A DNA stretch of 32,124 nucleotides, from positions 1-32,124 of the IMG/VR virus record IMGVR_UViG_3300027659_000128; one strand, given 5' to 3'. Within the stretch, counting starts at the first letter, position 1. Every line of letters starts with the position of its first letter. Both the position numbers and the translations under genes were made by a program. Below, piece after piece: positions 3,232-29,430 of the stretch. Source of the stretch: a virus. The notes under the pieces are model-generated. The model had not been told where the DNA came from, did no database searches, and saw only the letters and a list, made by a program, of their open reading frames with translations.

Positions 3232-4301
3232 ATCGTAAGTCGGTCATCAAAGCTGAAAAGCAAATCCAATCCCTTTTTAAGAAATACTTTGCAGCGCAGA
3301 AGAAAGCGATCTTGGCTTACTTAGAAGCCAATGTGATGAAGGCTACTTATTCGCAAGTCAGCCTAGAGGCTTTGATCGCTGAATTAAAAGCAGCCCAAGC
3401 AAGTCCTAGACTGATCGGCAAAGTGCAATCCTTACTCGAAAAGATTACGAGAGAAACCTCTAATCTAACTTTAGCTGCGGTCGGTAAAGAACTCAGCAGA
3501 GATTTTGGTGATGATGTTTTTAATCTTGTGAATACTTATGCGAGAGATTATTCCATTGAGCGAACCGGCAGACTGATTACCGATATCGGAGAAACAACGC
3601 TGACCACCGTTCGAGAGAAGCTGGGCATCGCAATCGATAATGGAATGTCCGTCAAAGAATACGCTGATCTGCTTGATTCGTCTGGGGTCTTTGGAGAAAC
3701 CAGAGCCTTGATGATCGCGCGAACTGAAACTTCCTTGGCTCATAACGAAGGCGCGGTTCAGTCTTACATTGATTCAGGCGTGGTCGAAGGTAAGGAATGG
3801 CTGATTGCAAGTGATGCTTGTGACGAGTGCCTTCCTTACAATGGCGAAGTCGTAGGCGTGAATGAAGCCTTCTCGAACGGAGAGTATGCACCGCCTCTAC
3901 ATCCCAACTGTCGCTGCACGACTATTCCGGTCATCGATGAAAGTCTCCTTGCGTTATCCGCATCCTCTGAGCTGCAAAAGGCTGAGACTTACAAACCTAC
4001 CGAGGCGATGGCAGAGGAAGCCAGACGAGCCTTGAAGTGGAAAGCCGAAGGCAATGCTGGTGGAACAAGAGTCGGTCTAGCCAGAGCGAATCAACTCGCC
4101 AAGCGTGAGAATCTATCTGAGTCCACCGTCAAGCGAATGTTCTCCTTCTTTAGTCGCCACGAAGTGGACAAGCAAGGCAAGGGCTTCTATCCGGGCGAAG
4201 GCTATCCGTCTAAAGGCAGAGTCGCTTGGGGATTGTGGGGTGGCGACGCTGGATTCTCTTGGTCACGCACAATCGTCGAACGCCTAAAAGAAAAGGGCTG
4301 A
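3207..4301 (+). CDS. MuF-like minor head protein with an extra C-terminal domain
   Basis: Head morphogenesis protein of the phage Mu gpF family, usually present in a few copies near the portal. In the 364-residue product the MuF core spans roughly residues 130-245: ARTETSLAHN (171-180), the cysteine pair near 205/208 (DACDEC), and HPNCRC (232-237). Residues about 265-364 form a second module (EEARRALKWKAEGNAGG..., RHEVDKQGKGF, GRVAWGLWGGDAGFSW) that I recognise as recurring in phage head proteins and proteases, function unknown. The start is TTG at 3207 within the portal end; no ATG is better placed. Its last codons double as the minus-strand terminator of the convergent block. Confidence 0.87.
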   Translation: MGKPLPSINRKSVIKAEKQIQSLFKKYFAAQKKAILAYLEANVMKATYSQVSLEALIAELKAAQASPRLIGKVQSLLEKITRETSNLTLAAVGKELSRDFGDDVFNLVNTYARDYSIERTGRLITDIGETTLTTVREKLGIAIDNGMSVKEYADLLDSSGVFGETRALMIARTETSLAHNEGAVQSYIDSGVVEGKEWLIASDACDECLPYNGEVVGVNEAFSNGEYAPPLHPNCRCTTIPVIDESLLALSASSELQKAETYKPTEAMAEEARRALKWKAEGNAGGTRVGLARANQLAKRENLSESTVKRMFSFFSRHEVDKQGKGFYPGEGYPSKGRVAWGLWGGDAGFSWSRTIVERLKEKG

Positions 4302-4337: not shown

Positions 4338-4526
4338 TTAATTATCTTTTGCGTTTAGTCTTTTAGTAACCGTTCGCTTGGCTCTTTCGACTTCCTGTTC
4401 CGTCATTCCTTGGGCGACCTTCTCAGCCATTGCGACGCACTCTCTGGACTTCTTGTCGGTCGGCGCGGTGATCGCTAGGGTGAGGGCAGAGCATAGAGCT
4501 TCAAACTGCGATAGTTTAATTTTCAT
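4338..4526 (-). CDS. Small helical protein of unknown function
   Basis: A 62-residue minus-strand frame with GGAG seven bases before its ATG, overlapping the end of the preceding membrane-protein gene by 11 bases. The protein is helical and mixed-charge, with the stretch MAEKVAQGMTEQEVERAKRTV and a basic end. No signal peptide, cysteine cluster or known motif is evident. It is the last gene of a three-gene block and is followed at once by a terminator. Confidence 0.65.
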   Translation of the reverse strand: MKIKLSQFEALCSALTLAITAPTDKKSRECVAMAEKVAQGMTEQEVERAKRTVTKRLNAKDN

Positions 4527-4701
4527 TTCTAAACTCCTCGATGATGCTTTTTAATAATACGCCTAGACCCACCAGACTGCAAACCGCCAACGGCAGATAG
4601 GCAAAAGTGAAGGTGGCTAATTCAACGTTAAGGTAAATCACGAACAGAGACGCAAGTAAACAGGCGAATACTTTGACTGCGGGGATGGCGTTCTTAAGCA
4701 T
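4516..4701 (-). CDS. Small membrane protein
   Basis: A 61-residue frame starting at the ATG at 4701-4699 (AATGCTTAA, overlapping the stop of the upstream gene), with GAGGTGG as ribosome binding site. An upstream in-frame ATG would give 98 residues, but it has no such site and would run deep inside the upstream gene. Two hydrophobic stretches (about residues 8-25 and 33-51) predict two membrane passes, with a charged C-terminus SIIEEFRNEN. It may be an inner-membrane moron product acting on the host, but that is inference. Confidence 0.65.
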   Translation of the reverse strand: MLKNAIPAVKVFACLLASLFVIYLNVELATFTFAYLPLAVCSLVGLGVLLKSIIEEFRNEN

Positions 4702-5008
4702 TGACCACCTCAAGAGAAACAACAGCAAGGATAAAAGAACCGCAGCAGTTATAAACTTCATAACCCTTAAAGCCATTTTCTTCATAAGCCTCAAATCTAT
4801 CATCCCCGCCACCTACAAACCAAGCACCAGCAATGCCTAATGTTCTTTCAATATGTCGGTCTGTTTGCTTGGCAGTAGCAAAAGCACTTTCAACCGGCAT
4901 CACGCCATCAACCATTCCATCGAATCGACTCTTTACATTGATCAGAAGATGCTGGCGGTTCTTCCGGATGAAAGACTTAACTGTTGCTTTTGTGATTTTC
5001 TTTTGCAT
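4694..5008 (-). CDS. Protein of unknown function, first gene of the minus-strand block
   Basis: A 104-residue soluble protein. Its N-terminal third is basic (KKITKATVKSFIRKNR), and the rest contains AGAWFVGGGDDRFEAYEENGFKGYEVYNCCGSFILAVV, with a GGGDDR turn and a Cys-Cys pair. I do not recognise a named family. Translation starts at an ATG preceded by GGAGAAT, which abuts a 7-bp inverted repeat. Its promoter overlaps the 23-bp operator shared with the Cro-like gene, so it is probably expressed early or as a moron under that regulator. Confidence 0.72.
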   Translation of the reverse strand: MQKKITKATVKSFIRKNRQHLLINVKSRFDGMVDGVMPVESAFATAKQTDRHIERTLGIAGAWFVGGGDDRFEAYEENGFKGYEVYNCCGSFILAVVSLEVVNA

Positions 5009-5011
5009 TTG

Positions 5012-5038
5012 ATTCTCCTTATGGGGGAAATCCCATAA
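5012..5038 (-). promoter_or_regulatory. Leader hairpin ending at a GGAGAAT ribosome binding site
   Basis: On the minus strand TTATGGG - six bases - CCCATAA is a perfect 7-bp inverted repeat whose last base is directly followed by GGAGAAT and then the start codon. With the proposed promoter, the transcript would begin close to the 5' arm, so the stem would sit at the 5' end of the mRNA next to the ribosome binding site. Two other leaders in this window have the same layout with different stem sequences (24836-24870 and 28975-29007). Confidence 0.5.
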
Positions 5039-5042
5039 CCCA

Positions 5043-5075
5043 ATCCTAATATAAACTTGACAACTGTCAAGTATT
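5043..5075 (-). promoter_or_regulatory. Promoter with palindromic operator, copy 1
   Basis: Minus-strand -35 TTGACA (5070-5065), 16-base spacer, -10 TAGGAT (5048-5043). The -35 box is part of the palindrome CTTGACA-AC-TGTCAAG (5056-5071). A 23-bp segment around it (5053-5075) is identical, apart from the two central bases, to 24437-24459 in front of the Cro-like gene. This is a strong candidate operator for that regulator. Confidence 0.65.
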
Positions 5076-5102
5076 TATTTATATCTATAAACCTTGATAT
5101 CG

Positions 5103-5145
5103 CTAGGCTTATCCAATATCTTCCTATAATCCGATTTAAGCCTAG
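5103..5145. repeat. 9-bp inverted repeat in the non-coding stretch
   Basis: CTAGGCTTA (5103-5111) and TAAGCCTAG (5137-5145) are perfect inverse complements separated by 25 bases that include TATAAT at 5125-5130. This could be a regulator site or cruciform. No plus-strand gene lies immediately downstream to match the TATAAT. Confidence 0.45.
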
Positions 5146-5229
5146 GCTCTTATGCTATGGGCGTTATGCCTCAATGGAGCCTACACCCCCTAGAATCGAC
5201 TATAAAGGGGCGTAAATAAAGCGAAAGGC

Positions 5230-5294
5230 TTATATGTGTGTATATGTTTATGTATATGTATATGTATGGGAGTCCGATCGGATATCCGACCGGA
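5230..5294. repeat. TATATG-type short repeats and a GC-rich 22-bp dyad in the non-coding stretch 5009-5318
   Basis: Bases 5230-5267 are made of TATATG/TTTATG/TGTATA-like hexamers. They are followed by a dyad at 5273-5294: the halves TCCGATCGGAT and ATCCGACCGGA pair at 10 of 11 positions, and the dyad contains the shorter palindromes TCCGATCGGA and CGGATATCCG. No T-run follows on either strand, so this is not an intrinsic terminator. The roughly 310 bases between the start of the gene at 5008 and the end of the gene at 5319 hold this dyad, the inverted repeat at 5103-5145 and the operator-promoter, and no convincing gene. Confidence 0.5.
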
Positions 5295-5318: not shown

Positions 5319-5501
5319 TTAGCGACCTCTGGATTTACGGATCTCGTCTTGAAGTTCAATGGGATTGGCTCGATCATACATCTTACGCATCTGGTAAAGG
5401 TTCATCCAGACCTCGAACATAATGAGCAGAGCTGCGAGAAAGACAAGGCTCAACAATGCCTCAGTCGATAACCTGACCCACCTTCGGATTTTGAATAGCA
5501 T
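5319..5501 (-). CDS. Small single-pass membrane protein
   Basis: A 60-residue minus-strand frame with a good ribosome binding site (GAGGTGA four bases before ATG). The basic N-terminus MLFKIRRWVR precedes one hydrophobic segment at about residues 13-33 (TEALLSLVFLAALLIMFEVW), followed by a charged tail ending ELQDEIRKSRGR. The layout suggests an inner-membrane anchor with a short soluble tail. The function is unknown. It follows the Ref-like gene by 12 bases and is probably co-transcribed with it. Confidence 0.6.
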   Translation of the reverse strand: MLFKIRRWVRLSTEALLSLVFLAALLIMFEVWMNLYQMRKMYDRANPIELQDEIRKSRGR

Positions 5502-5513
5502 GGCTCACCTCTG

Positions 5514-5834
5514 CTAAAGATACCAATTCGGGTCGGATGCGTCTAGCCTTTCGATGACTGCGTTAATACCCGCCACGATCTCGGATTCCCTACCATACTT
5601 TTCGCGCCACTTCTTTGGACTGCAATGGAAGGCTAATTTGGTGGTATCAAAGTTTCCCTGATGGTGTCCTTCACATAATCCAATCGTTTGAAAATGAGAC
5701 GCTCTTTGACCCATGCCCATGCCTTCTCGAATGTGATGTATCATCGCTGGAGTCTCAACGCCATAATCGACTCGACAGCAGTAACATCCCAGACGAGCGA
5801 CTTTGTTTAAGTGGAGTTTCTCTTTAGCGTTCAT
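5514..5834 (-). CDS. Ref-like HNH nuclease family protein
   Basis: Resembles phage P1 Ref (recombination enhancement function), a RecA-dependent HNH-type nuclease, and related small phage proteins. Seen in the 106-residue product: LGCYCC near residues 15-20, the HH pair in MIHHIREGMGMGQRASHF, LCEGHHQG near 55-62, and the C-terminal WREKYGRESEI typical of the family. The ATG at 5834 gives the usual family start (NAKEKLHLNKVARLGC); a TTG at 5849 would add five residues, and neither has a clear ribosome binding site. It may cut DNA during recombination with host RecA, which would complement the Erf and RusA proteins. The family match is from memory of motif order, not a search. Confidence 0.72.
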   Translation of the reverse strand: MNAKEKLHLNKVARLGCYCCRVDYGVETPAMIHHIREGMGMGQRASHFQTIGLCEGHHQGNFDTTKLAFHCSPKKWREKYGRESEIVAGINAVIERLDASDPNWYL

Positions 5835-5863
5835 AAGACTAGGATACAATTAAATACAGAGCG

Positions 5864-17739: not shown

Positions 17740-18063
17740 ATGACTCTTATAGAATCTAAATATCTACAAGACGATTCAGACATTGGAATCACCGTCTTAA
17801 CAGACGTGATTACAGGATCGAATACGGTTAAGTTCACAACATCAAAATATATTCGAGTGGCTTGGGATTTTCCCATCAATGCACCCGATCCAGAGTCTTT
17901 TGAAATTATCGTCTTCGAGGGAACTGACCCTACCGATGAATCAACTTATCTTTTTCCTATGATTTCAGTTTCGGGTGAGCAACGAATCTGGGTAAAAGCA
18001 ACGACATGGAATGGAACTGCGACACTTAATGCTGCTGTCCGAGCAGTTTACTATAAGGGATAA
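17740..18063 (+). CDS. Small beta-rich structural protein between hub and fibre
   Basis: 107 residues from the ATG at 17740, with AAGGA just upstream; the frame is open further upstream but those codons overlap the hub gene. The sequence (YIRVAWDFPINAPDPESFEIIVFEGTDP..., IWVKATTWNGTATLNAAVRAVYY) has the strand pattern of a fibronectin/Ig-type domain. It probably decorates the hub or links the fibre. Named only by context and fold appearance. Confidence 0.65.
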   Translation: MTLIESKYLQDDSDIGITVLTDVITGSNTVKFTTSKYIRVAWDFPINAPDPESFEIIVFEGTDPTDESTYLFPMISVSGEQRIWVKATTWNGTATLNAAVRAVYYKG

Positions 18064-24408: not shown

Positions 24409-24436
24409 ACCACCCTTTCAACGAGGGGTGGTTTTT
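24409..24436 (+). terminator. Rho-independent terminator closing the late operon
   Basis: ACCACCC (24409-24415) and GGGTGGT (24426-24432) form a perfect 7-bp stem with a 10-base loop, followed by TTTT at 24433-24436. It lies 50 bases after the last lysis gene and immediately before the operator-promoter of the Cro-like gene. Confidence 0.9.
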
Positions 24437-24469
24437 AATACTTGACAAATGTCAAGTTTGTTTTAATCT
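24437..24469 (+). promoter_or_regulatory. Promoter with palindromic operator, copy 2, in front of the Cro-like gene
   Basis: -35 TTGACA (24442-24447), 16-base spacer, weak -10 TAATCT (24464-24469). The -35 is inside the palindrome CTTGACA-AA-TGTCAAG (24441-24456). The 23 bp 24437-24459 match 5053-5075 on the other strand except for the two central bases. The regulator encoded 20 bases downstream probably binds here and represses its own gene. Confidence 0.75.
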
Positions 24470-24488
24470 TAGGCTCAAGGAGAAATGC

Positions 24489-24698
24489 ATGGATGTAATC
24501 AGCAAGTTAAATGCTATCGCTAAGATTGGCGTAAGCCAACGAGCGTTAGCTCAAAGATTAAACATATCGGAAACAACGGTTTGCCGATGGTATAAAGGCG
24601 AACGAAAACCTAACGCAGCGAATCTAATTTTTCTTTCGCTCAAGTTTCCAGATTTTTTTAATAACAACGAGGTCATGAAATGGCTATCAAAGAAATAG
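24489..24698 (+). CDS. Cro-like helix-turn-helix regulator
   Basis: 69 residues with a clear helix-turn-helix at about 15-39: VSQRALAQRLNISETTVCRWYKGERKP. AAGGAG precedes the ATG at 24489; another ATG four bases upstream is out of frame. The tail KFPDFFNNNEVMKWLSKK may mediate dimerisation. It is the first gene after the terminator and sits directly behind an operator palindrome that also occurs before the minus-strand block, so it most likely controls both units. No larger cI-type repressor or integrase is seen, so this is not good evidence for lysogeny. Confidence 0.85.
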   Translation: MDVISKLNAIAKIGVSQRALAQRLNISETTVCRWYKGERKPNAANLIFLSLKFPDFFNNNEVMKWLSKK

Positions 24699-24820
24699 TT
24701 TCTCGAATCTTCGCTGGGCTGCTTTCGATCTTTGCGACGGCTCTGCTTTTATTCGCTCTCGGAATCATCAGTAAAATCTTCATCACCGTTTTCAAGTGGG
24801 GTTACAGAATCGTTCTTTAA
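24680..24820 (+). CDS. Small membrane protein
   Basis: 46 residues, overlapping the end of the regulator gene in another frame, with GAGG seven bases before its ATG. One long hydrophobic segment spans about residues 10-37 (IFAGLLSIFATALLLFALGIISKIF), then KWGYRIVL. It is probably an early inner-membrane protein; the function is unknown. Confidence 0.6.
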   Translation: MAIKEIVSRIFAGLLSIFATALLLFALGIISKIFITVFKWGYRIVL

Positions 24821-24835
24821 TCCTACGCTACGAAG

Positions 24836-24870
24836 TTTGATGGACTTCACCAACACCATCAAAGGAGAAT
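24836..24870 (+). promoter_or_regulatory. Leader hairpin ending at the GGAGAAT site of the Erf gene
   Basis: TTTGATGG (24836-24843) and CCATCAAA (24856-24863) are perfect 8-bp inverse complements around 12 bases, and GGAGAAT starts at 24864. Same layout as 5012-5038 and 28975-29007 with a different stem sequence. TTTAAT at 24816-24821 could be a weak -10 a few bases upstream. Confidence 0.5.
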
Positions 24871-24875
24871 AAATC

Positions 24876-25568
24876 ATGTTGAACAAAAGCGAATCCATCG
24901 CCAACCTTGTCAAAGCCTTGTCAGCTTTACAGGGTGAACTCAAGGACAGCAGTAAGAACGCGGTGAACCCGCACTACAAAAGCAAGTATTCCGATCTTTC
25001 GGAAGTGCTTGGGAATCTTCGACCCCTTCTGGCTAAGAACCAATTAGCCCTCAGCCAATTCCCTTCTTTCGAGAATGGGATTGTCTCCGTCACTAGCCTC
25101 TTGGCTCACGCCTCTGGCGAATGGATCGAATCAACCGCCTCAGCCCCAGCCACCAAACAAGATGTTCAAGGCGTTGGCTCGGCAATCACTTACTTAAAAC
25201 GCTACTCAGCCACTTCGATTGTCGGCATGGCAAGTGCGGATCAAGATGATGATGGCAACTCCGTCAGCACCGTCCCTCCTGTGATTATGAAAGTCCCATC
25301 GCCTAAAATTGATCTGAATGGGAATCCGATGAAGCAAGACTTTCGCCAACTCTCGGATGCTGAGACTACAAAAATTGAAACAATCATTCAGTCTTACGCA
25401 AAAGCTCTAGTCCTTGCTGGGATCAAAGAAGATCAGACGAACGAGAAAGTCGATCTCGCTCGGTCAATGGCTAAGAGCCAACCTTTCGATTTATTCGTCA
25501 AGGACTACACCGCCAAGACCACTCGCCTTAAAGAGATGGTTAAAAAAACAGACGACATTCCTTTCTAA
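24876..25568 (+). CDS. erf: Erf-type single-strand annealing protein
   Basis: Recombinase that anneals complementary single strands, used for phage recombination and genome circularisation. 230 residues; the Erf core is residues about 5-130: LVKALSALQGELKDSSKNAVNPHYKSKYSDLSEVL, then GIVSVTSLLAHASGEWI, QDVQGVGSAITYLKRYSATSIVGMASADQDDDGN, typical of the family. The C-terminal 70 residues are helical and end KKTDDIPF, the same last five residues as bacterial SSB (DDIPF). GGAGAAT precedes the ATG behind an inverted repeat. It leads the replication operon with RusA and the initiator. Confidence 0.92.
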   Translation: MLNKSESIANLVKALSALQGELKDSSKNAVNPHYKSKYSDLSEVLGNLRPLLAKNQLALSQFPSFENGIVSVTSLLAHASGEWIESTASAPATKQDVQGVGSAITYLKRYSATSIVGMASADQDDDGNSVSTVPPVIMKVPSPKIDLNGNPMKQDFRQLSDAETTKIETIIQSYAKALVLAGIKEDQTNEKVDLARSMAKSQPFDLFVKDYTAKTTRLKEMVKKTDDIPF

Positions 25569-25578
25569 GGGGGACACT

Positions 25579-25851
25579 ATGAGCAATCAATACACAGACG
25601 ATTATGGGTGCTGTTCAGTCTGCGGTTCGCCTTCGTGTTCCATCTGCGAAAAATATGATGATGTGGGTACTAACTATCATTGGGCTTACCGATTTGGAGG
25701 GCAATGGCCGCCATTAGAAACGCCAGAACAAAGAGCTGAACTGTTCCAAAGAATTAAAAAAGAGTATGGACTTTCTGCCTTAGTCGAAATGGCGAAGCAT
25801 TATCGATTTGACAAAGCCTATAAAAAGGAGATAGAAGATGCCACACGATAG
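25579..25851 (+). CDS. Small protein with Cys-rich N-terminus, paralogue 1
   Basis: 90 residues from the ATG at 25579 with AAGGGGG upstream. The first 23 residues contain CCSVCGSPSCSIC, a tight cysteine array likely to bind zinc; the rest (ELFQRIKKEYGLSALVEMAKHYRFDKAYKKEI) is helical. The next gene codes the same motif, CTSCGSFYCSIC. The role is unknown; zinc-dependent binding of nucleic acid or a host protein is possible. Confidence 0.72.
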   Translation: MSNQYTDDYGCCSVCGSPSCSICEKYDDVGTNYHWAYRFGGQWPPLETPEQRAELFQRIKKEYGLSALVEMAKHYRFDKAYKKEIEDATR

Positions 25852-26020
25852 CGAAGGTCGCTGCACTAGCTGCGGCTCTTTCTACTGCTCGATCTGTGCC
25901 AAATGGCTTGATAATGATTTCAAGATCGGAACGGACGCACCTGATCTGCCAACCGAAGCAGAATCAACTAATAAACCAAATCGTGAGTTCCGTTTGAGAG
26001 AAATGAAAGGCTTTTGGTGA
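25838..26020 (+). CDS. Small protein with Cys-rich N-terminus, paralogue 2
   Basis: 60 residues, overlapping the previous gene by 14 bases, with GGAG before its ATG. It has CTSCGSFYCSICAKW at about residues 9-23, closely matching CSVCGSPSCSICEKY of the gene before. The tail is acidic and then basic (NREFRLREMKGFW) without clear fold. The pair suggests duplication, with the helical half kept in only one copy. Confidence 0.68.
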   Translation: MPHDSEGRCTSCGSFYCSICAKWLDNDFKIGTDAPDLPTEAESTNKPNREFRLREMKGFW

Positions 26021-26027
26021 GGGTCAA

Positions 26028-26120
26028 ATGCAGATCATGATCGCTTTCGCCCTTGGCTTCTGGCTCGGCAGAAGATACGAGATCAACCGCCAAAAAAAGT
26101 GCCTGAAAGGGCATCGATGA
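26028..26120 (+). CDS. Tiny hydrophobic peptide
   Basis: 30 residues: MQIMIAFALGFWLGRRYEIN and a basic end. The first 14 residues are a short membrane-insertable helix. GAGGGT precedes the ATG, and the stop overlaps the start of the next gene (ATGA). Too short for a family, but the packing suggests it is translated. Confidence 0.45.
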   Translation: MQIMIAFALGFWLGRRYEINRQKKCLKGHR

Positions 26121-26296
26121 AATATCACTTCCTTCGCCATGATTACTTTAAGCTGCAACGAACGGTCAATGAGTTAAAAGCTTTAAGCACAATCTTGGTG
26201 AAGGATTATGGATACACCCCCCAACATATTTACAAAATCTTAGAGGAGATTTACGATGCACAAAATCCACAAATCGTTGAGCGAAGAATTAAGTGA
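26117..26296 (+). CDS. Small helical protein
   Basis: 59 residues from the ATG overlapping the previous stop; a GTG at 26099 would add six. Sequence FKLQRTVNELKALSTILVKDYGYTPQHIYKILEEIYDAQ is all-helical, with basic ends. No family is recognised. Its 3' part overlaps the next gene in another frame. Confidence 0.55.
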   Translation: MKYHFLRHDYFKLQRTVNELKALSTILVKDYGYTPQHIYKILEEIYDAQNPQIVERRIK

Positions 26297-26393
26297 CTTC
26301 GTCTGGTCGGCTAAAAACCTTAGCGAGAGCCACAACGTCACCCTTGAATCTTTAGTCAGAATCTTAAAGGCTAATCTTAATGCGCCTGAATAA
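26256..26393 (+). CDS. Small helical protein
   Basis: 45 residues with a strong GAGGAG site before the ATG at 26256. Helical: KSLSEELSDFVWSAKNLSESHNVTLESLVRILKANL. It overlaps both neighbours by tens of bases. No function can be given. Confidence 0.55.
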   Translation: MHKIHKSLSEELSDFVWSAKNLSESHNVTLESLVRILKANLNAPE

Positions 26394-26589
26394 CGACCAC
26401 ATCTACAATGTAAAGAAACCCAAGATTCGAGATCTTGTCCTCATGCGTCTGGCTGAGGGAGATCAACCCCCTTACATCGAAAGTGTTGCTGTGAGATTCG
26501 ATATCCCATGCCATCAAGCGGCTCGAATCCTAAATGAAGTTAAGAAGGAGATTGGCTATGACAAAAAAACAAAAAATAGAGCTTATTGA
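26380..26589 (+). CDS. Small putative winged-helix or helix-turn-helix protein
   Basis: 69 residues, overlapping the previous gene by 14 bases. The stretch KIRDLVLMRLAEGDQPPYIESVAVRFDIPCHQAARILNEVKKEIGY has the spacing of a DNA-binding winged helix: helix, short helix, recognition helix. The end is basic. It could regulate early genes or assist replication. The assignment is by pattern only. Confidence 0.55.
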   Translation: MRLNNDHIYNVKKPKIRDLVLMRLAEGDQPPYIESVAVRFDIPCHQAARILNEVKKEIGYDKKTKNRAY

Positions 26590-26680
26590 AAAGCACTTTC
26601 AGCATCCGATTGACCCTAAAGAGATGAACGAGAAAGAGTTAAATGCGTGGGTGCAGTTCATTGGATTCTTGCAACGATGA
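26558..26680 (+). CDS. Small protein of unknown function before RusA
   Basis: 40 residues, MTKKQKIELIEKHFQHPIDP and on, with GGAG before its ATG. It overlaps the previous gene by 32 bases and ends ATGA into rusA, so it probably serves in coupled translation. It is helical with an aromatic end (AWVQFIGFLQR). No family known. Confidence 0.55.
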   Translation: MTKKQKIELIEKHFQHPIDPKEMNEKELNAWVQFIGFLQR

Positions 26681-27102
26681 AACTCTTTTATAAAATCTCC
26701 GCTGTCGCTAAAGGCAGACCCCGATTCAGGATGCTGCCGGGCAGAAACTACCCAATGGTTTACACCGACACCCTTACCGCTACCTACGAGACAGCAATCA
26801 AGATGCTGACGAAGGCGCAGCTGGGTAAATACTTCCAGCCTTTCGATGGGGCGATCTCAGTCTGTATAAACATTGAAATCACTAGACCTAAGAGCGTTAC
26901 AAGGGACTATCCCAGCGTAAAGCCAGACCTCGACAACTACGCCAAAGCGATCCTAGATGCGCTGAATAGCCTCGTCTGGCTCGATGACGCTCAAATATGT
27001 TCCCTGCAAATCACAAAATCCTATAACCTTAAGCCAGCGATCACCGTTGAGATCGATCACCACCAAGGAGAATCAAATGTTATTCCCTCAAGAGGAGATT
27101 GA
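26677..27102 (+). CDS. rusA: RusA-family Holliday junction resolvase
   Basis: Endonuclease that cuts four-way junctions made by recombination or replication. 141 residues from the ATG overlapping the preceding stop. Family marks: the N-terminal KGRPRFRM, KPDLDNYAKAILDALNSLVWLDDAQI at residues 82-107 with the acidic metal ligands Asp84, Asp86 and Asp103/104, and the final strand PAITVEID. It sits in the Erf operon, fitting a recombination-replication module, and could resolve branched DNA before packaging. Confidence 0.93.
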   Translation: MKLFYKISAVAKGRPRFRMLPGRNYPMVYTDTLTATYETAIKMLTKAQLGKYFQPFDGAISVCINIEITRPKSVTRDYPSVKPDLDNYAKAILDALNSLVWLDDAQICSLQITKSYNLKPAITVEIDHHQGESNVIPSRGD

Positions 27103-27475
27103 TAAGTTTAATACTTACAATCGAAAACTTTATAAGACTAAAAATGAAGAAGGCAAAATCGAACAGCGACCGGTGATCTTAAAATCAAAAGATCAAGCGA
27201 TCAAAGAAGTGGAGTCACATGCTGATCCGAAATGGATCGCCAAAGCAAATGAAGCTCTGGACATCCTCATTAAAAACAATCAAGAGTTCACCAGCGATCA
27301 AGTCTGGAAACTTCTCGACTCTTGGCAAGTGCCTCGACCTCATGCACCGAGTGCGATGGGATCAATCATGCGACGTGCTGCCTTAGCGAAAAGAATTAAA
27401 AAGACCGGTCGGTTTATTCCTTCCTCACAAGGGACTAATCACCAAAGGGACGTTGCCGTCTGGGGAGTCGTATGA
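27077..27475 (+). CDS. Replication-region protein with winged-helix-like domain
   Basis: 132 residues from the ATG at 27077 (GGAG upstream), overlapping rusA by 26 bases. The N-terminal third is basic (KFNTYNRKLYKTKNEEGKIEQRP). Residues about 50-132 (WIAKANEALDILIKNNQEFTSDQVWKLLDS, PSAMGSIMRRAALAKRIKKTGRFIPS, DVAVWGV) match a small winged-helix module that I recall in many phage replication regions. It lies directly before the initiator, so a role in origin or helicase loading is possible but unproven. Confidence 0.65.
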   Translation: MLFPQEEIDKFNTYNRKLYKTKNEEGKIEQRPVILKSKDQAIKEVESHADPKWIAKANEALDILIKNNQEFTSDQVWKLLDSWQVPRPHAPSAMGSIMRRAALAKRIKKTGRFIPSSQGTNHQRDVAVWGVV

Positions 27476-27957
27476 AGCCCTTCTGGTTTCCCATTGAACC
27501 GGCTGCCTTCCTATCGGACAGTCTTGTGGATCAAATGACCACAATCGAATTAGGGGCTTGTTTCAGGCTCTTGTGCCGACAATGGATAGACGGTGACCTA
27601 CCAGACGATCCAGAGCAGCTTCGTCGCTTGGCGAGGCTCTCTAAGCCTGAAATGGATGAGGCTTGGGAAGTCATACAAAGGTTCTTCCCTAAGTCGGGAG
27701 ATGGCAAACGAGCCAACCGATATGCTAATGAGCGAAGGAAAGAAGTAACGGAAACCCTATCTAAACGCCATGATGCAGGCGTCTTAGGGGCTGAAAAGCG
27801 ATGGGGTAGCAATAGCAATCGCATAGCAAACGCATGGCAACCGCATAGCAAAGGCAATGCAATAGATATAGTTAAAGTAAAACAAAATATAAAAGAAAAG
27901 AATGATAAGAAAAATACCGATGATATTTTGGATTTAATCTCTAAAACCATTCCTTAA
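27472..27957 (+). CDS. DUF1376-type replication initiator with internal origin
   Basis: 161 residues. The N-terminal domain (about 1-112) is DUF1376: WFPIEPAAFLSDSLVDQMTTIELGACFRLLCRQWIDGDLPDDP, NRYANERRKEV and the basic RHDAGVLGAEKRWGS typical of phage replisome-organiser-like proteins. The tail is Lys-rich and probably unstructured. Gene bases 27807-27863 carry tandem 11-bp DNA repeats, followed by A-rich DNA. No helicase or polymerase is encoded, so it should recruit host replication enzymes. It starts in the stop of the previous gene. Confidence 0.82.
   Translation: MKPFWFPIEPAAFLSDSLVDQMTTIELGACFRLLCRQWIDGDLPDDPEQLRRLARLSKPEMDEAWEVIQRFFPKSGDGKRANRYANERRKEVTETLSKRHDAGVLGAEKRWGSNSNRIANAWQPHSKGNAIDIVKVKQNIKEKNDKKNTDDILDLISKTIP
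27807..27957 (+). other. Candidate replication origin: 11-bp iterons plus A-rich unwinding region
   Basis: Five copies at an exact 11-bp spacing begin at 27809, 27820, 27831, 27842 and 27853. Three carry CGCAT(A/G)GCAA; the first shares ATAGCAA, and the fifth is more diverged (AATGCAA). One extra TAGCAA lies at 27807. The spacing of about one helical turn would put bound proteins on one face. Because 11 is not a multiple of 3, the repeats are a DNA signal, not a protein repeat. They are followed from about 27861 by strongly A-rich DNA, as in lambda's origin inside gene O. Confidence 0.68.
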
Positions 27958-27967
27958 GGAGGAATTA

Positions 27968-28282
27968 ATGTATCAAACCATCAGAGAAGCCTTACTCACC
28001 AAGGGAATATCGTGTTCCTTCTGGGGCAAGAAGGACGAATCAGGCGTAATGGGTAAGCCTACTCGCTTATATATCAACCATCAAATGCCCAAAGATGTGA
28101 AGGTCTACATCGAGTTCCCTGACCCAGAGACCCTACTCAATGGGTCAATCAAAGTTAAGATCTACCCCTTCGACGACACTACGGCGGGTAAGGATAAGTT
28201 TATGACTTGTCTAAAAGTAGCCAAAGAGAATTGGGGCAATGTCCCGCAGCTCATCAACGAAATCGTCATGGGTGATTTATGA
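27968..28282 (+). CDS. Protein of unknown function
   Basis: 104 residues with a strong AAGGAGG site. The stretch TRLYINHQMPKDVKVYIEFPDPETLLNGSIKVKIYPF is a beta sheet of charged strands, followed by helices to the end INEIVMGDL. It overlaps the next gene by four bases. I do not recognise a family. It is the first gene after the initiator and its iteron/A-rich region. Confidence 0.68.
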   Translation: MYQTIREALLTKGISCSFWGKKDESGVMGKPTRLYINHQMPKDVKVYIEFPDPETLLNGSIKVKIYPFDDTTAGKDKFMTCLKVAKENWGNVPQLINEIVMGDL

Positions 28283-28485
28283 AAATCCAGACGACTACCT
28301 TCTGGCGAGACCAAAATAACCTCGATGTTGGAATGTCTTTTAACCGATACCAATGCCGAGTCCAGACCGGTGCTGATGATTGCCTCATTTCCTTCAGCGT
28401 GGATAACATTGAGAACGCCGCCATTGTTTTAGAATCATTAACCAAAATTACTAAAGAACTTCAGGATTTTGTCGATGCTCATTGA
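28279..28485 (+). CDS. Small protein of unknown function
   Basis: 68 residues, start coupled to the previous stop (ATGA). It has beta-like segments (TTFWRDQNNLDVGMSFNRYQCRVQTGADDCLISFSV) then a helix (NAAIVLESLTKITKELQDFV). It could be a small host-takeover protein like many in this region, which is inference from position only. Confidence 0.58.
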   Translation: MKIQTTTFWRDQNNLDVGMSFNRYQCRVQTGADDCLISFSVDNIENAAIVLESLTKITKELQDFVDAH

Positions 28486-28672
28486 TTGGAAGCCCAAACA
28501 AAATTGGACGATCAAGAGCGTCCCAGATATCGGCTGGATGGCAATCTGCGAATATGATGAGTCGAGCGTTTGTGCGGTGTCGTTGTATGATCTTTCTATA
28601 CTTATCAGAGCCATCGACAATGAAACAACACAAATGCAGCTACTGCCACAAACGAATCCCCATGCCCCCTGA
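28475..28672 (+). CDS. Small protein of unknown function
   Basis: 65 residues from the ATG at 28475 with AGGA upstream. The sequence WKPKQNWTIKSVPDIGWMAICEYDESSVCAVSLYDLSILIRAID looks like a small beta-alpha domain. It overlaps the previous gene by 11 bases and the next by 53. No family is recognised. Confidence 0.5.
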   Translation: MLIDWKPKQNWTIKSVPDIGWMAICEYDESSVCAVSLYDLSILIRAIDNETTQMQLLPQTNPHAP

Positions 28673-28769
28673 TTTTACTATTTGCGGATACTGCGAAGAA
28701 ATCTTAGAAGATTTAGAGCACTTAAACAACGCCATTAAACTACTTAAAGCGGAGAGACAAAATGATTGA
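28620..28769 (+). CDS. Small zinc-finger protein
   Basis: 49 residues: MKQHKCSYCHKRIPMPPDFT then ICGYC, two CxxC pairs 16 residues apart, so a four-cysteine zinc site, followed by a helix EEILEDLEHLNNAIKLLKAER. The longer upstream frame runs inside the previous gene and is not convincing. It overlaps the next gene by eight bases. A role in nucleic-acid or protein binding is likely but unproven. Confidence 0.62.
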   Translation: MKQHKCSYCHKRIPMPPDFTICGYCEEILEDLEHLNNAIKLLKAERQND

Positions 28770-28953
28770 CCTATACCTAATTGGAGTCGCAGCCACAGCG
28801 ATGTGGATGTTCGCCTCAGACTTTGATCGCCACACGATCTTGGCACTTGATCTTAATATCGAGCCAAAATACAAGCTCAAAGATTACGCTTGGCGACCCT
28901 TTATTTTTCCTTATCTTCTAGCCAAGTTCTTATTCACTCGCATCAAGAATTGA
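28762..28953 (+). CDS. Small membrane-associated protein
   Basis: 63 residues, GGAG upstream. The first 17 residues (LYLIGVAATAMWMFAS) and a C-terminal stretch (FIFPYLLAKFLF) are hydrophobic, with a charged middle. The stop lies inside the following inverted repeat. It may be an early inner-membrane protein; the role is unknown. Confidence 0.58.
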   Translation: MIDLYLIGVAATAMWMFASDFDRHTILALDLNIEPKYKLKDYAWRPFIFPYLLAKFLFTRIKN

Positions 28954-28977
28954 CACCTACGAAAAGTCAATTTTTTT
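28948..28977 (+). terminator. Weak terminator-like hairpin
   Basis: AATTGAC (28948-28954) and GTCAATT (28966-28972) pair perfectly around 11 bases and are followed by T through 28977. The stem is AT-rich, so termination would be partial. TTGACA is present at 28950-28955, but no -10 box is in reach. Confidence 0.45.
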
Positions 28978-29007
28978 AGGGTAATCTAATAAACCCTAAA
29001 GGAGAAT
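28975..29007 (+). promoter_or_regulatory. Leader hairpin ending at a GGAGAAT ribosome binding site
   Basis: TTTAGGG (28975-28981) and CCCTAAA (28994-29000) are perfect 7-bp inverse complements around 12 bases. GGAGAAT begins at 29001, and the ATG follows at 29009. This is the third instance of the layout at 5012-5038 and 24836-24870, with a different stem sequence each time. Confidence 0.5.
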
Positions 29008-29008
29008 T

Positions 29009-29206
29009 ATGCGAGGCGTAGGCATGACCAGAAGTGAATTAGTAAAGCGTATTGAGGCAGTCAAGAAGGATTATCTCAACGTCAAGTGGTCAAGGGTCAA
29101 AGCCTATCGTAGTCGCAAAGACCAGCTGCCAGAACTCGCCAAAGAACTCTCGCATCTAAAATCAGCGTTAGACTACATTGACAACCACCATGACTTTGCG
29201 GTATGA
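29009..29206 (+). CDS. Small coiled-coil-like protein
   Basis: 65 residues, first ATG after a leader hairpin with GGAGAAT. Sequence MTRSELVKRIEAVKKDYLNV... KDQLPELAKELSHLKSALDYID is almost all helix with heptad-like leucines and many charges. It overlaps the next gene by four bases. The function is unknown. Confidence 0.58.
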   Translation: MRGVGMTRSELVKRIEAVKKDYLNVKWSRVKAYRSRKDQLPELAKELSHLKSALDYIDNHHDFAV

Positions 29207-29430
29207 AACTAGAGCATTACAAGTATCCCAGCTTGATCCAGACCATGCACTCGATGATCTTTATCGCGTGTCTTAATCACAAGACATGGGGACTGCCGGA
29301 ACTCGCTAAAGTTTGCAGCTTAAGACACTTTGAAATGCTGCCGGAATCCATCACCAAAGAGTGCATCAAGGAATGCATTAAGATCGGCTGGTGTGAGAAG
29401 AATGGCAAGACGTGGAAGTCTAGTCTTTAG
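29203..29430 (+). CDS. Small protein of unknown function
   Basis: 75 residues, coupled to the previous gene (ATGA). The motif LPELAKVCSLRHFEMLPESITKECIKECIKIGWCEKNGKTWKSS has the order of a winged-helix domain with several cysteines. It converges with, and overlaps by 11 bases, the minus-strand gene at 29420-29671; no terminator is visible between them. Confidence 0.52.
   Translation: MKLEHYKYPSLIQTMHSMIFIACLNHKTWGLPELAKVCSLRHFEMLPESITKECIKECIKIGWCEKNGKTWKSSL

Follow-up and report, generated by a model that had tools for sequence, protein, structure and literature searches.

A palindromic operator candidate shared by a regulator gene and a distant accessory transcript in a viral genome

What is the role of a 23-bp element that occurs twice, on opposite strands and far apart, in a virus record of 32,124 nt (the window, that is, the whole stretch of DNA that was analysed)? 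Site A occupies positions 24437–24459 of the plus strand and reads AATACTTGACAAATGTCAAGTTT, while site B is the reverse complement of positions 5053–5075 and reads AATACTTGACAGTTGTCAAGTTT. As a preliminary description of this DNA had stated, the two elements differ only in the central dinucleotide (21 of 23 positions are identical), contain the same perfect palindrome CTTGACA-NN-TGTCAAG and overlap the −35 box of a promoter. The promoter arrangement is TTGACA-16-TAATCT at A and TTGACA-16-TAGGAT at B (Table 1). Its further statement that site A lies beside a helix-turn-helix (HTH) gene was borne out by a 69-residue HTH_3 protein encoded immediately downstream. When the whole 32-kb window was scanned with CTTGACANNTGTCAAG, sites A and B were the only matches with zero to two mismatches, and two further matches at three mismatches correspond to chance level. 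Near repeats of 23–29 bp are not rare in the window, with several at 70–86%; in contrast, two gap-2 dyads having identical 7-bp arms appeared in none of 300 dinucleotide-shuffled versions of the window. The unusual part is the perfect dyad that appears twice, at two promoters, rather than the near repeat itself. The separation of about 19 kb given in the preliminary description holds within the record (19.4 kb), but shrinks to about 12.7 kb across the joined ends. Both L048 and L050, two related records, read through the window ends (32124 to 1) with approximately 125 extra bases in between, and because these relatives run through the joined ends, the window appears to be a nearly complete genome that was opened at an arbitrary point.

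Table 1. Positions of the features around sites A and B in the window.
Feature	Positions	Strand	Remarks
Terminator (intrinsic) of the preceding gene	24410..24434	+	stem CCACCC / GGGGTGG, then T run; just before operator A
Operator A (candidate)	24441..24456	+	perfect 7-bp dyad CTTGACA-AA-TGTCAAG; holds −35 TTGACA 24442–24447
−10 box TAATCT	24464..24469	+	16 bp from the site-A −35
Shine-Dalgarno AAGGAG	about 24477–24482	+	site-A side, before the regulator gene
69-residue Cro/C1-type HTH protein (proposed regulator)	24489..24698	+	first gene of the early operon
Early-type gene run	24680..29430	+	small membrane protein, ERF recombinase, RusA-like, primosomal protein, small genes; behind the regulator
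Operator B (candidate)	5056..5071	−	perfect dyad CTTGACA-GT-TGTCAAG; holds −35 TTGACA 5070–5065
−10 box TAGGAT	5043..5048	−	16 bp from the site-B −35
104-aa cargo gene	4694..5008	−	directly behind operator B; other genes in its place in relatives
98-aa ORF, membrane protein	4516..4812	−	kept in related records behind variable cargo; start probably inside the ORF
62-aa gene	4338..4526	−	ends the site-B transcript; its most conserved gene
60-aa membrane protein and Ref-like (RecA-dependent) nuclease	5319..5849	−	upstream of operator B, outside its transcript

A plausible ligand of both dyads is the 69-residue protein, which scores as HTH_3 with 26.9 bits (cut-off 23), finds its best solved relatives in the P22 c2 repressor (E 8e-4) and is the sole HTH_3 protein in the window; L048 and L050 likewise encode one each. 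A search for distant homologues in named phages returned generic HTH matches only. A second HTH-like candidate that had been picked by eye at 26380–26589 was dropped, as tblastn gave no relative in L048 or L050. The −10 box at site A is weak, and a stock promoter scan raised no flag there.

Sequence comparison favours, with a probability of about 0.77, a reading in which the dyad serves as operator for the phage-encoded 69-residue HTH protein, which would shut the early operon and the accessory transcript together and thus combine a self-limiting early burst with an exchangeable cargo slot. Upon entry, host RNA polymerase would use the two similarly built promoters (TTGACA-16-TANNNT), the first of which would drive the regulator together with the early replication and recombination operon, and the second an accessory transcript encoded within the head module. 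As the regulator builds up, a dimer could occupy the dyad that covers the −35 box at each promoter and shut off both together, which would give a self-limiting early burst from two promoters. At the second operator, the promoter, the operator and two trailing genes would remain constant, while the cargo gene behind them changes. From the sequence we infer binding by the 69-residue protein and early timing, and repression because the dyad overlaps the −35 box. A role in lytic timing is more likely than one in immunity, because searches for the integrase or resolvase (PF00589, PF00239) that would accompany a temperate-phage immunity repressor returned none in the window, L048 and L050, all of them records that may be incomplete. 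Conceivably, the HTH protein might instead bind both sites as an activator, since some phage regulators, such as lambda CII, bind around the −35 box and activate transcription. We consider this improbable: the dyad lies over the −35 box and the spacer and not upstream, the −35 box already matches the consensus, and repression is the outcome at Aca promoters, which carry an inverted repeat in a strong core promoter (PMC9410906).

The palindrome could also act as RNA, in form of a terminator or a hairpin for transcription coming from upstream, and at both sites a terminator scan indeed flags ACTTGACA..TGTCAAGT with T-rich sequence after it. Such a stem would have three G-C pairs only and a minimal loop, a good terminator is already present directly upstream of A, and the direct repeats that stand at the corresponding promoters of L050 (see below) cannot form a hairpin of this kind, which makes a function as RNA the least credible of the alternatives, with a very small likelihood.

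Site B reads into a minus-strand transcript (5008–4338) that sits between head-morphogenesis and protease genes. The preliminary description had predicted a regulon of two sites, comprising self-repression and control of this head-module insert. Comparison with relatives supports the two-site regulon well, since both sites are kept in L048 and both are changed in L050, and the regulon is likely because relatives keep or jointly change the two sites. Control of the insert, however, needs to be narrowed to the genes for the 104-aa, 98-aa and 62-aa proteins, because the genes encoding the 60-aa protein and the Ref-like nuclease are located upstream of B. The 104-aa cargo has no Pfam, PHROG, PADLOC or PDB-fold match, and its fold is predicted with confidence (pLDDT 90). 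Members of its family are found in more than 20 viral contigs, mostly from unrelated phages. Defence profiles were searched for among the cargo genes, and none was found. The site-B transcript would start with a short hairpin right before the Shine-Dalgarno sequence (TTATGGG..CCCATAA, minus strand, 5017–5040), which is kept in relatives (ATGGC..GCCAT in L052); folding of this 5′ leader gave no excess stability over shuffled sequences. Upstream of B, a conserved non-coding stretch (5076–5250) recurs in seven related records, and its core around CCCCCTAGAATCG..TATAAAG.GGCGTAAATAAAGCGAAAG hardly varies. In L050 a 156-aa gene lies at the matching place, and the stretch was not seen there. Rfam and tRNA searches found nothing.

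Related IMG/VR records were collected through searches with the terminase, 104-aa, Ref-like, ERF and 62-aa genes, which converge on one small set. The regulator gene is included in three genomes only, two with the palindrome (the window and L048) and one with direct repeats (L050). Both dyads are present in L048 (16.9 kb), at the same two genes as in the window, and the three operator bases that differ from the window, two of them at A and the third at B, are all central ones; by our own arithmetic, the chance of all three falling on central positions is about 3e-4. With 21/23 and 22/23 identical positions in the operators versus 96/107 and 258/300 in the flanks, conservation of the operators between these two genomes does not clearly exceed that of their surroundings, which makes it a weak argument taken alone. 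Over the eight related records, a TTGACA-NN-TGTCAA dyad covers the −35 box at site B in seven. All nine dyad promoters, as well as the regulator promoter of L050, share the layout TTGACA-16-TANNNT. The outer pair at site B is C/G in four records and A/T in the other three (L052, L115 and L116, with ATTGACA-TC-TGTCAAT), a symmetric change that these three probably inherited from a single event. No close host or prophage copy was found. The dyad CTTGACA-NN-TGTCAAG with up to one mismatch also occurs in two to five copies in L003, L007/L016/L018, L008/L015, L013, L017 and L020, apparently unrelated phages, where several copies precede −10-like boxes; a check of these records for a regulator like that of the window gave none that was convincing.

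The first gene behind the site-B promoter encodes the 104-aa protein in the window, L048 and L050, a 60-aa protein in L049, a Cys-containing protein of about 78 aa in L011, WG-repeat proteins in L052 and L116, and a 185-aa protein in L115. The membrane protein and the 62-aa gene trail this cargo unchanged as it varies. Because the gene right behind the minus-strand promoter differs among relatives, this position is an exchangeable cargo slot. The L115 cargo (L115:2134–2691) gave a weak match to a ScaI restriction endonuclease profile (E 0.0019), which is below the cut-off.

A different picture emerges for L050, which retains the gene order, apart from the extra 156-aa gene that precedes the promoter of the 104-aa gene, and encodes a syntenic HTH protein (HTH_3, 32.3 bits, cut-off 23) that is 28% identical to the regulator of the window. 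The regulator promoter (L050:791) reads CTTGACACTAATTGACATTTTTTGACACC, and the promoter of the 104-aa gene (L050:14924), read from the opposite strand, TTTGACACTTATTGACAAGTTTTGACAAG. Both contain TTGACA-N4-TTGACA-N4-TTGACA with a 10-bp period, and at the second promoter the three hexamers lie on the antisense strand. A search for the triple TTGACA with up to two mismatches in 18 positions gave no match beyond these two promoters in about 108 kb of eight records. An array scan that is blind to the hexamer recovers both, at an expectation of 0.017 per random sequence of genome size; beyond these it hits only two arrays in L050, one of 11 bp at 3956 and one of 12 bp at 17914, the latter inside the capsid ORF.

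These observations bear on the possibility that a strong sigma-70 promoter was simply copied to a second locus, with the dyad being incidental and no regulator involved. TTGACA is also the −35 consensus, hence promoter constraint accounts for part of the half-site, and the common spacing of 16 and the TANNNT box would be expected of copied promoters. Yet a second, inverted TTGACA is superfluous for a −35 box, the dyad is kept in seven records, including those with the symmetric outer change, and sigma-70 constraint fails to explain the hexamers of the second L050 promoter because they are antisense, which renders a bare promoter copy rather improbable. Alternatively, the ligand of the dyads may be a host regulator rather than the phage HTH protein, in which case both promoters would be linked to the physiology of the host. 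Phage promoters with operators for host repressors do exist, one of them being P1 coi with its LexA site (cited in PMC4713147). This explanation is unlikely, although somewhat less so than the others, as one site is located directly upstream of the phage HTH gene in all three genomes that include it, and as both sites change their arrangement together where the HTH protein has diverged, that is, in L050.

For the phage's own regulator, the comparison with L050 raises a more far-reaching option, which we regard as evenly poised between right and wrong: operator geometry may have been swapped as a unit together with a new HTH protein at both promoters, between an inverted TTGACA pair and three direct repeats, while the cargo was swapped freely. 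The second site would then be a plug-in slot for early expression under control in trans. In a limited search of the open-access literature, no report was found of paired sites that switch together between inverted and direct arrangement. It is this change of geometry at both promoters that is unusual; otherwise, the system is ordinary in kind.

Several known systems provide models for its parts. In the Aca repressors of anti-CRISPR operons, a small phage HTH protein and an inverted repeat in a strong sigma-70-like core promoter, as present in the window, serve to switch off an early accessory gene, as is proposed here (PMC9410906). In contrast to the Aca arrangement of regulator and accessory gene in one operon, the window has them on separate transcripts (24489–24698 on the plus and 5008–4338 on the minus strand); its regulator gene stands first in an early replication operon, and the protein would reach the cargo slot in trans over about 12.7 kb, and its cargo is no known anti-CRISPR. 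The C1 repressor of phage P1 has operators at several separate phage promoters (PMC4713147), and in the window, too, one candidate operator is found at two separate promoters. C1, however, maintains lysogeny through many sites, including one at ref, whereas only two sites are present in the window, where searches found neither integrase nor resolvase and where the Ref-like gene is not located behind a site. Like P22 c2 and lambda Cro-type regulators, the 69-residue protein has an HTH domain that aligns with the P22 c2 repressor, and a symmetric operator overlaps its own promoter in the window and L048, while L050 has direct repeats instead. Unlike in these phages, neither a divergent CI/Cro switch nor a further HTH_3 repressor was found in the window, and the target sites belong to two unlinked transcripts. 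The tandem direct repeats one helix turn apart in L050, which are absent in the window, resemble the sites of Apl from phage 186, an excisionase-type regulator whose six-base site is directly repeated at phage promoters with a spacing of one turn of the helix (PMC7498355). L050 differs in that no integrase was found and its protein scores as HTH_3. Phage repressors with distributed operators and Aca-like logic are already known; by analogy, Aca-like logic would here act in trans.

Taken together, the window and its relatives may offer a small two-site phage regulon whose regulator, operator and cargo lend themselves to comparison among related phages. If binding is confirmed, the pair of the window and L050 would represent a natural experiment in which a repressor and all its operators change together. 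In addition, the site-B promoter may provide a handle for early accessory genes in related phages, whose current cargo would be whatever follows operator B.
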